Of a stretch of DNA of 11,232 nt, positions 2,821 to 11,232 are shown one piece after another (within the stretch, counting starts at the first letter, position 1; every line of letters begins with the position of its first letter). This DNA is from a bacterium. Its GTDB lineage: Bacteria > BMS3Abin14. The notes below the pieces were generated by a model, which had not been told where the DNA came from, did not search any database, and worked only from the letters and a program-made list of their open reading frames with translations. Where the stretch lies: the NCBI GenBank assembly GCA_029210545.1, contig JARGFV010000067.1, positions 1 to 11,232 of the forward strand. The letters are read 5' to 3'. Both the position numbers and the translations under genes were made by a program.

Positions 2821-2983
2821 GTCGCGCCCGGGAAGGGCGCCCGGATCGATGACCGATTAACAGCAGCCGCGCCTGGGAGCGGCGCCCGGATCAGTGACTG
2901 AAATACAGGGCACTGATCCGTGAGGGAACCGGAAACCACGCTTTTCGGTTCCCGTTGAGCCAAAGTCCCACCCGGACTTTGGC
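2821..2983 (-). repeat. Composite palindromic element between trkA and trkH
   Basis: Read on the minus strand, starting 6 bp after the trkA stop, there are four parts. (a) A perfect 10-bp stem GCCAAAGTCC/GGACTTTGGC with a 5-nt loop (2959-2983). (b) The linker TCAAC, then a stem of 8 bp plus 3 bp with one mismatch, GGGAACCG/CGGTTCCC (2924-2953). (c) A stem pairing GGATCAGTG with CACTGATCC (within 2886-2919). (d) Two copies of a module in which GATCCGGGCGCC is followed by a short loop and GGCGCG, with the 12-mer at 2881-2892 and at 2836-2847. A homologous element with altered stems but the same linkers lies at 10995-11123. It could act as a processing or attenuation element in a trkA-trkH transcript, or as a dispersed REP-like repeat. 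Confidence 0.75.
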
Positions 2984-4482: not shown

Positions 4483-4533
4483 AGTGAGAAGGGTGACACA
4501 AGGGTGGGGAAGGGTCAAGAGGAGGAAAACGCC

Positions 4534-4568
4534 GGGAATAGGGAATAGGGAAGGATGAAGGATGAAGA
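4534..4568. repeat. Heptamer tandem repeat (GGGAATA type)
   Basis: Units GGGAATA, GGGAATA, GGGAAGG, ATGAAGG and ATGAAGA lie in strict 7-nt register on the plus strand, in the spacer between the flavin oxidoreductase gene and the trkA unit. It is purine-only except for the T residues. Confidence 0.7.
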
Positions 4569-4583
4569 AAATCATGGTGTTTT

Positions 4584-4632
4584 TACCCTTCTTCCTTCCT
4601 CCTTCTACCTTCCACCTTCCTCCTTCTGCCTT
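4584..4632. repeat. Seven-unit heptamer repeat running through the 3' end of the oxidoreductase gene
   Basis: Seven consecutive pyrimidine-rich heptamers lie on the plus strand: TACCCTT, CTTCCTT, CCTCCTT, CTACCTT, CCACCTT, CCTCCTT and CTGCCTT. The complement of CTACCTT supplies the TAG stop (4605-4607) of the minus-strand gene, and the units from 4605 to 4632 encode its basic/acidic tail. Because 7 is not a multiple of 3, a gain or loss of one unit would change the reading frame at the C-terminus. Confidence 0.75.
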
Positions 4633-5732
4633 TTCTTTTTTTCCGGAACGCAGTAGATCCCTCCCTCCCGCATTCCGGGCCTGAAGCACAGGTTGCAGGA
4701 AGTACAGGTGGAGCGGTGGGCAGGATCACACCGCCAGATGTTCACCAGGTCCGGTTCCCGGATGAGGGGCCGGGACAGGGAGAACAGGTCCGCAGCGCCT
4801 TCGTCGAGGAGAGCCTGGATCACCGGGAAACTCCGCAGCCCTCCGACCAGGAGGACCGGGACACCCACTTCGGGCCTGATCCGGCGGGCGAAACCGGCAT
4901 TGTACGCCTCGCGCTCCTCGCTGCTGATCATCTTTCGCACAGGGACTCCCTCCCCGGAGCCGGCCGTGCCGGCGCTGACCTCGATGGCGTCGATCCCCAT
5001 GGCGTCCAGCCGCCGTGCAAAGTATACCGCGCCTTCGATCCCGAGACCGCCGGCAAGGTTGTCGGAACCTGTCAGCTTGATGATCACCGGAAAGCCGGGA
5101 CCGACCTGTCTGCGGACGCTGCCGAAGATCTCCTCAAGTAACCTGAAACGGTTTTCCGGAGAACCGCCGTATGCGTCCTCCCGCCGGTTGGTCAGAGGGG
5201 AGAGAAACTGGTTGATGAGGTACCCGTGGGCGCCGTGGAGCTGAACGCCGTCAAACCCGGCTTCCATGGCCCTGCGGGCCGCCTGGCCGAACGCTTCAAC
5301 CACTTCGGCGATCTCCCCGGCGGTCATGGCCCTGGGAATCCCGGAATAGAAAGGACTTTCAATAGCCGAAGGGCCCAGGGGAGCCTCACCGATGGTCCTG
5401 GTGGAGGTCTGGGCCCCGGCATGGAAAAGCTGGGCCATGATCCTCCCCCCGGCATCGTGGACCGCTTCAGCGAGGGTACTCAGCACGGGGATCTGCACGT
5501 CGCTGCACGCCCCGATGGCTCCGGTCATCTGGCGGCCCTTTGCGTGGACCACCGTGTAACCGGTGATGATGAGACCCACACCGCCGAGAGCCAGTTCACG
5601 GTAGAGGTCGGCCAGCCTCGGTGTCGGCCGGCCGAACTCGTCGCACATCCCCTCCCACGTGGCGCTTCGCACAAAGCGGTTGGGAAGTTCCAGGGTGCCT
5701 ATTTTGATTTTGTCGTAAAGGGTCTTGCTCAT
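4605..5732 (-). CDS. NADH:flavin oxidoreductase, Old Yellow Enzyme family, with C-terminal Cys motif
   Basis: FMN-dependent (beta/alpha)8-barrel ene-reductase-type enzyme. The start at 5732 (MSKTLYDKIKIGTLELPNRF) matches family N-termini; an upstream in-frame start at 5792 adds unrelated residues and is rejected. Visible landmarks are SATWEG at 23-28, HAG at 104-106, HGAHGYL at 166-172, then FLSPLTNRR and DAYGG (to 190), SPENRFRL at 191-198 and the phosphate-binding VGGLRS at 296-301. Four cysteines near the end (C343, C346, C349, C361) form C-x2-C-x2-C-x11-C. This is close to the [4Fe-4S] motif of 2,4-dienoyl-CoA reductase relatives, but with one residue fewer between the second and third cysteines. 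The NADPH domain of those enzymes is absent (375 aa in all). The natural substrate cannot be told from sequence. The last 9 or so residues (KRQKEEGGR) come from a heptamer repeat. The gene stands alone between two spacers. Confidence 0.9.
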   Translation of the reverse strand: MSKTLYDKIKIGTLELPNRFVRSATWEGMCDEFGRPTPRLADLYRELALGGVGLIITGYTVVHAKGRQMTGAIGACSDVQIPVLSTLAEAVHDAGGRIMAQLFHAGAQTSTRTIGEAPLGPSAIESPFYSGIPRAMTAGEIAEVVEAFGQAARRAMEAGFDGVQLHGAHGYLINQFLSPLTNRREDAYGGSPENRFRLLEEIFGSVRRQVGPGFPVIIKLTGSDNLAGGLGIEGAVYFARRLDAMGIDAIEVSAGTAGSGEGVPVRKMISSEEREAYNAGFARRIRPEVGVPVLLVGGLRSFPVIQALLDEGAADLFSLSRPLIREPDLVNIWRCDPAHRSTCTSCNLCFRPGMREGGIYCVPEKKKRQKEEGGR

Positions 5733-5924: not shown

Positions 5925-6587
5925 GCGCGGGCTTATAGCCCAAACGCCCGGGATTTGACCGCAGAGCACGCCAAGAACGCGGAGAAAACCGGAGAACCAT
6001 GGGGACAAGCGCGGGCTGGTGCCTTTAGGGCTTTAAGGTCTGCCTCGCGCCCGTTCGCCACGCCATGGCGTGACTCACTCAAGCCGCAAAGCCGCAAAGG
6101 AGATCACACCCTCACCGGATACGTTGAAAGACCTGACTGCCAGGATGAAAATTCATTTTCACCTCTGTGCATCAGGTCTTTCAACTTCTTTCCAAAGGAA
6201 AGCCCATTCCCCTGGAATGGGTCGGTGAGGGAAATGTTTCCTCTGCGTTCTTCCCCCTGATTTAAGGTTTTCCCCTGTGAAACCCTGTGTACCCTGTGGT
6301 GAGATACGGGCTTTTGCGCCGCAAGGCATGAGATCGCTCCCGTCTACGTCTTCGACTACGCCGTTGCAAGTCACCTGGTGTTTGCTCGCGAAGACAAGCA
6401 TCACCCCAGTTCCTGGCTTTCTCCGTGTCCTCTGCCAGTCACGCCAGAGGCGTGATGCCTCCGTGGTAATAGCCCTTCGGGCATTTACGGCACACGCCCG
6501 AGTCTCCCCCCCCAGCTCTATGGTTTCCTCTGAGTTCTCTGTGCCCTCTGTGGTGATAGCTCTCCTGGAATTTATGGCACACGCCCG
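5925..6587. repeat. Gene-free repeat region of CACAGAG-type units and hairpins
   Basis: The gap 5793-6571 holds no credible gene. Two imperfect copies of a unit lie about 87 bp apart on the minus strand (starting at 6586 and 6499). Each begins GGGCGTGTGCCRTAAAT, continues to TATYACCACRGAGG and then has a purine-rich tail built on CACAGAG/CACGGAG. A related unit lies at about 6260-6335 (ACCACAGGGTACACAGGG). One in the opposite orientation lies at about 5928-5990 (GGGCTTATAGCCC, then GACCGCAGAGCACGCC). Palindromes in the region: CACGCCATGGCGTG at 6059-6072, TCACGCC/GGCGTGA at 6439-6455, CTTTCC/GGAAAG at 6188-6202 and CCCATTCC/GGAATGGG at 6203-6221. An 8-C run is at 6506-6513. Open frames through it encode only the repeated peptide pattern RRAITTE. 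Confidence 0.75.
6124..6184. repeat. 13-bp inverted repeat with nested hairpin
   Basis: TTGAAAGACCTGA (6124-6136) and its exact complement TCAGGTCTTTCAA (6172-6184) enclose a smaller stem TGAAAA/TTTTCA (6146-6161). Two more small hairpins follow directly (6188-6202 and 6203-6221), giving three or four stems in 100 bp. The outer pair resembles in layout the GTTGATGGAC/GTCCATCAAC pair at 11124-11152. Confidence 0.65.
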
Positions 6588-10994: not shown

Positions 10995-11232
10995 TGATAG
11001 GGTCGCAAAAAGTCCGATCCGGGACTTTTTGCTCAACGGGAAGGGAAAAACGTGGTTTTCCCTTCCCTCACGGATCGCTGACATATTTAACGGTCATCGA
11101 TCCGGGCGCCCCGCAAGGGGCGCGTTGATGGACTTTTTGCGTGTCCATCAACTGTGATAGGGTCGCAAAAAGTCCGATCCGGGACTTTTTGCTCAACGGG
11201 AAGGGAAAAACGTGGTTTTCCCTTCCCTCACG
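10995..11232 (+). repeat. 160-bp-period tandem array of palindromic modules (cut by window end)
   Basis: Bases 10995-11072 are repeated identically at 11155-11232, an offset of exactly 160, and the second copy continues past the window. One unit holds four stems. GCAAAAAGTCC/GGACTTTTTGC (11005-11032) is a perfect 11-bp stem. GGGAAGGGAAAA/TTTTCCCTTCCC (11038-11067) is a perfect 12-bp stem. GCGCCCC-GCAA-GGGGCGC lies at 11106-11123. GTTGATGGAC/GTCCATCAAC (11124-11152) is a perfect 10-bp stem. The first three match, module by module, the element at 2821-2983 read on the other strand. It lies just upstream of tpx in the opposite orientation. Confidence 0.85.

Follow-up and report, generated by a model that had tools for sequence, protein, structure and literature searches.

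Two palindromic sequences in a bacterial genome of the BMS3Abin14 lineage, one in the trkA-trkH spacer and one near tpx, resemble each other in their linkers while their stems differ on both arms together. This raises the questions of what kind of element they represent and what keeps the arms paired. A first-pass annotation of the window (the whole 11,232-nt stretch analysed here) had read them as a composite element with a common order of parts, possibly a structured RNA or a protein-bound repeat.

Two copies of a dispersed repeat in the window

Both palindromic stretches were found at the positions given by the first-pass annotation, with the stems that it described (Table 1). Hairpin 1 has different arms in the trk and tpx copies, and CC/GG pairs of hairpin 2 are swapped to GG/CC; TCAACG, TCACGGATC and GGTCATCGATCCGGGCGCC are common to both copies. 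In a repeat search the arms 2881-2964 and 11027-11110 matched over 84 nt at 79%, and the resemblance of the two copies is far beyond chance. The common order of parts held for hairpins 1 to 4, but colinearity was incomplete: the trk copy is made up of a single hairpin 1-2 unit plus two hairpin 3-4 units and lacks either terminal inverted repeat, which makes it a rearranged, end-less composite. The tpx copy had been taken to end at 11123; the complete element in fact spans 10995-11150 and is followed in tandem by another copy, which extends past the window end into an assembly gap on the contig. RNA folds of two complete elements were far more stable than those of shuffled sequences (z = -7 and -10).

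Table 1 Features of the two repeat loci in the window.
Feature	Position	Strand	Basis
Composite copy in the trkA-trkH spacer: hairpins 1, 2, 3, 4 and a second hairpin-3/4 unit	2823..2983	-	sequence; ~60 genome matches
Hairpin 1 of trk copy, GCCAAAGTCC/GGACTTTGGC	2959..2983	-	sequence
Hairpin 2 of trk copy, GGGAACCGAAAA-GCGTGG-TTTCCGGTTCCC, one A.C position	2924..2953	-	sequence
Hairpin 3 of trk copy	2888..2919	-	sequence
Hairpin 4 of trk copy	2869..2885	-	sequence
Second hairpin 4 of trk copy (extra unit)	2823..2842	-	sequence, repeat search
Complete 156-bp element near tpx, first of tandem pair	10995..11150	+	sequence
Terminal inverted repeat, A end of tpx copy, TGATAGGGTCGCAAAAAGTCC	10995..11015	+	end-pattern search, repeat search
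Hairpin 1 of tpx copy, GCAAAAAGTCC/GGACTTTTTGC	11005..11032	+	sequence
Hairpin 2 of tpx copy, GGGAAGGGAAAA..TTTTCCCTTCCC	11038..11067	+	sequence
Hairpin 3 of tpx copy	11072..11103	+	sequence
Hairpin 4 of tpx copy	11106..11123	+	sequence
Hairpin 5 (B-end hairpin) of tpx copy	11126..11150	+	sequence
Terminal inverted repeat, B end of tpx copy, GGACTTTTTGCGTGTCCATCA	11130..11150	+	end-pattern search, repeat search
Second tandem copy near tpx, start only, cut by window end	11155..11232	+	sequence, repeat search

The window also contains a 43-nt direct repeat of another kind (CCTCCGTGGTAATAGCCCTTCGGGCATTTACGGCACACGCCCG, 84%), located in a spacer at 6458-6500 and 6545-6587. None of the repeat elements matched an Rfam covariance model. 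Weak Rfam microRNA matches at 4499-4644 of the window fell on a low-complexity stretch, where a purine tract lies opposite a pyrimidine tract (4540-4622); these matches are presumably spurious and were taken as chance.

Ends, target sites and size of the family

Using the trk copy as a query, we recovered ~60 matches, spread over ~45 loci of its own 2.72-Mb genome, with E values down to 1e-60, which bears out the suggestion of a dispersed family. When the copies were aligned with their flanks, most started with TGATAGRGTCGCAAAAAGTCC and finished with GGACTTTTTGCGAGTCCATCA, forming an imperfect terminal inverted repeat of ~21 bp. A pattern built on these ends matched the genome 405 times with up to 3 mismatches, while the reversed pattern, used as a control, had no match in the same genome; we therefore estimate roughly 200 elements for the genome. 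Most are 156-157 bp long, 157 bp being the commonest length. A 48-bp form consists of the two ends alone, and gain or loss of hairpin 1-2 or hairpin 3-4 units is common in the family, with composites reaching about 570 bp. Identical 4-mers flanked 53 of 81 simple elements, compared with 3.5% when the flanks were re-paired at random. The target consensus was CAANNTTG, of which 4 bp (ANNT) are duplicated; in the longer composites target duplications were mostly absent.

Terminal inverted repeats, target-site duplication and a short, non-coding, high-copy unit are features of miniature inverted-repeat transposable elements (MITEs), and no transposase domain was found inside the ~157-bp elements. 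AT-richness is often listed for MITEs as well but is not essential; the consensus here has 51% GC, below the 58% of the window yet not AT-rich. By rough ORF-based gene calls, 86 of 87 copies are intergenic.

Copies often sit in AACTGTAAACTGTGAACCGT-like simple repeats that contain CAANNTTG-like targets (for example at L011, L015, L017 and L034). Many contigs of the assembly (among them C2, C16, C17, C19, C33, C34, C41, C54 and C60 of G000) begin within 55-80 bases of an element end, indicating that the fragmentation of the assembly into 241 contigs is largely due to the repeat; many contigs also break off inside a copy.

Transposase genes between the same ends

An IS1182-like gene of 520 aa in the same genome (L136:1240-2906, contig C1 of G000) lies between TGATGGACCCGCAATTAGTCA and TGACGGCATCGCAAAAAGTATCA, and this was the only IS1182-like element found there. 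In a Desulfobacterales genome, a 1.9-kb element (L211) carries a 582-aa gene whose product is 50% identical to the own-genome transposase; this gene takes up the interval between a pair of MITE-type ends, which show 0 and 4 mismatches to the end pattern. A decayed relative with the left end TGACGGACTCGCAAAAAGTATCA was found in another genome of the family (G009). Judged by ends, elements at L136, L141 and L211 are candidate autonomous partners, by which the MITE is predicted to be mobilised. Two further long stretches bounded by ends (L147 and L219) contained ordinary genes and no transposase.

The IS1182 model was the best NCBIfam match for both transposases (E = 1.6e-33 and 2.1e-39), but their scores of 116 and 136 bits were under the equivalog cut-off of NF033551 (270 bits), so that by sequence they are related to the IS1182 family without being certified members. 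Their DUF772 and DDE_Tnp_1 domains scored just over or over the Pfam cut-offs. Transposases of the rve type (IS3, IS21, IS30 and IS481) had no match in the genome and were rejected as partners. The element ends, TGATRGRSTCGCAAAAAGTCC and its inverse, are most likely recognised by the IS1182-like DDE transposase, which would then move the element. IS1272, a member of the IS1182 family, was reported to target stem-loops, replacing them without duplication (PMC5678879). Such targeting fits the palindromic target of the MITE, although IS1272 makes no duplication. Taking these observations together, we consider it very likely that the copies form a new MITE family with an IS1182-like partner.

Compared with its L211 relative, the L136 transposase lacks ~80 residues. 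Going by the usual DDE layout, the missing stretch probably includes the last catalytic acidic residue, and the own-genome transposase is probably dead; the family may therefore now be stranded in this genome. The 4-mers flanking the L136 element differ (ACCT and ATAT), and a complete MITE lies 4 bp from its left end.

Paired changes in the stems

Among 40 distinct simple copies, 98.5% of cells in the paired columns could pair, and the arms of further copies thus did not vary independently. Two-sided changes occurred at 10 pairs and in 38 cells, compared with 4.2 and 6.9 in shuffles, and none of 500 shuffles reached the observed covariation score. When partners were slid by 1-3 columns, pairing fell to 38-56%. 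Hairpin 2 alone showed more than ten different perfect stems across copies. Pair counts obtained for hairpin 5 were alignment artefacts and were set aside. The paired changes inferred by the first-pass annotation from two copies are therefore real and exceed chance. It had taken them as the mark of selection on structure, but template switching between the arms can yield them too, and by themselves they do not tell a one-strand fold apart from palindromes in the DNA or from such switching. For this reason, we compared one-sided changes between the strands.

Strand asymmetry of wobble changes

A one-sided change that leaves A.C on one strand leaves G.U on the other. Counted over unique arm pairs on the A-to-B strand, the ratio of A.C to G.T cells was 27:5 in hairpin 2 and 32:2 in hairpin 3, and the asymmetry was weak in hairpin 1 (18:12). 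On this strand 22 pairs leaned to A.C and 3 leaned the opposite way (sign test, p = 1.6e-4). Steps inferred from trees of short alignments of related copies pointed in the same direction: on the strand read from the B end (TGATGGACTCGC), G.U exceeded A.C by 24:9 in the window's family and by 26:10 in a second interior from Desulfobacterota, giving 50:19 together for two interior families that are not wholly independent, as they have the ends and hairpin 1 in common. The stem formed between the two ends gave 13:2, but its columns overlap hairpin 1.

In contrast to the tree counts, the matching mutation classes were even in unpaired columns (78:78; Fisher p = 0.002), and recent singletons were divided 8:7 between the two classes, so that a simple mutational bias was rejected as the source of the asymmetry. 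New singletons were also fewer in paired columns (8/84) than elsewhere (22/73). Given the asymmetry in the stems and the even unpaired columns, a fold of the B-to-A strand, as RNA or single-stranded DNA, is the best account. Covariation beyond shuffles and a preference for wobble pairs on one strand, both expected of a structured RNA, were thus found together, and we regard strand-specific selection on structure as probable. The selected molecule would most likely be RNA and less likely single-stranded DNA. The earlier proposal of a structured RNA therefore gained real support, while it had missed that the element is a mobile MITE.

Proposed model and alternative explanations

We propose that the copies are non-autonomous DNA transposons whose ends would be recognised by an IS1182-like transposase, which would insert the ~157-bp unit into the target and duplicate 4 bp. 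Hairpins 1 to 4 form a chain in the interior, the fifth hairpin lies at the B end, and the two element ends can pair as well, closing the whole fold. Gain and loss of the two-hairpin units would give rise to the composites and to the end-less trk copy. Selection would maintain the hairpins through the fold of the B-to-A strand, and this fold may aid the element's own persistence or spread rather than neighbouring genes. With its conditional steps included, we consider this account of an IS1182-linked MITE with fold selection on one strand likely to be correct. More tentatively, the interior might encode a structured RNA, or a strand-specific fold of single-stranded DNA, that is needed for the spread of the element, on a five-hairpin plan common to the window's phylum and Desulfobacterota despite poorly aligning inner sequences. 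If so, a DDE-type mini-transposon would depend on a fold of one strand. A search of one element for promoters found no match.

The perfect stems and their paired changes would also be accounted for if the hairpins were palindromes at the DNA level only, in a MITE mobilised by IS1182-like enzymes, with no role for RNA and with the stems kept perfect by template switching (quasi-palindrome correction) or by a transposase that reads cruciforms. The reported stem-loop targeting by IS1272 of the IS1182 family (PMC5678879) and the lack of orientation bias to genes agree with this. However, both strands are exposed in a cruciform and the copies occur in either orientation, so A.C and G.T intermediates should be equally frequent, in contrast to the observed 50:19 beside 78:78 in unpaired columns, and we regard palindromes of this kind as unlikely. 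Still less likely is a cis-acting RNA element in host mRNAs (a terminator, an attenuator or an RNase III/E processing site) kept for the neighbouring genes. The very stable RNA folds and the intergenic location of nearly all copies are consistent with such an element, and ERIC and NEMIS, for which such a role was proposed, offer precedents (PMC2229807). Yet the four arrangements of flanking genes occurred 21, 28, 21 and 17 times among the 87 copies (rough ORF-based gene calls), none being preferred, no conserved T tract was found 3' of the hairpins, and the mRNA of the trk spacer would carry the A-to-B strand, which shows no wobble preference. That no orientation is preferred speaks against a fixed role in host mRNAs and suggests instead that the fold serves the persistence or spread of the element itself.

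A repeat of the REP/BIME type spread by a RAYT (Y1) transposase, another comparison raised by the first-pass annotation, is very improbable. The genome does have a RAYT gene above the NCBIfam cut-off (229 aa; L049:1429-2118, contig C150 of G000), with one element copy ~0.8 kb away. But this gene is flanked by short repeats of its own, CTGACACCGGGCGGGATG, which bear no relation to the MITE ends, the element close to it has an ATGT duplication of its own, and the family as a whole carries terminal inverted repeats and 4-bp target duplications. An origin of the family from REP repeats is contradicted by these duplications and the separate RAYT repeats.

Comparison with known systems

MITE families as such are known, with ERIC, NEMIS and BOX as precedents; what is unusual here is the chain of hairpins with wobble pairs conserved on one strand. 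The IS1182 family (IS1182 and IS1272) is the closest to both transposases by NCBIfam model, and a palindromic target was reported for some of its members (PMC5678879), but both transposases here score below the model cut-off and the duplication is 4 bp, compared with none for IS1272. ERIC, NEMIS (Correia) and RUP are likewise intergenic MITEs of 100-200 bp with terminal inverted repeats, target duplications and stable folds when transcribed (PMC2229807). They mostly form a single long hairpin and have TA at their termini, whereas the present family has a chain of separate hairpins, an ANNT duplication, other ends and strand-asymmetric wobble changes. BOX of Streptococcus pneumoniae also combines end modules with a variable number of internal modules, and an IS partner was proposed for it from similar ends (PMC3049150); it differs in host phylum and is unrelated in sequence by its described features, while here both the hairpin 1-2 and the hairpin 3-4 units vary in number. 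REP/BIME repeats with RAYT are dispersed intergenic palindromes too, but REPs are 20-40 bp long, are spread by a Y1 transposase and have neither terminal inverted repeats nor target duplications.

In the literature searched, we found neither the element end sequence nor any account of an IS1182-linked MITE from this group. The family is without an Rfam match despite its roughly 200 copies in this genome and the wide occurrence of its ends in Desulfobacterota. If the fold of one strand is real, the family would allow one to ask why RNA structure is conserved in a DNA mini-transposon. Other palindromic repeats with a disputed RNA role, such as ERIC, NEMIS and BOX, can be examined by the same simple comparison of A.C with G.U changes.

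Distribution among genomes

As a query, the trk copy also found matches in 8 of 11 further genomes of the family, whereas 29 genomes from outside the family gave none. Of the 12 genomes of the family, which as a single family constitute the sample of the phylum, 11 carried the ends. Ends of the same type also occurred in many Desulfobacterota, often around other interiors, and Desulfogranum marinum is a cultured host that shares them. Besides the window's family, a few named MAGs (L172, L179 and L195) carried the window-type interior. The second MITE interior in Desulfobacterota has the same ends and hairpin order, with hairpins 2-4 poorly alignable to those of the window type; it was found at L163, L192, L197, L209, L218, L231, L234, L242 and L305-L334, with 19-43 or more matches per genome.
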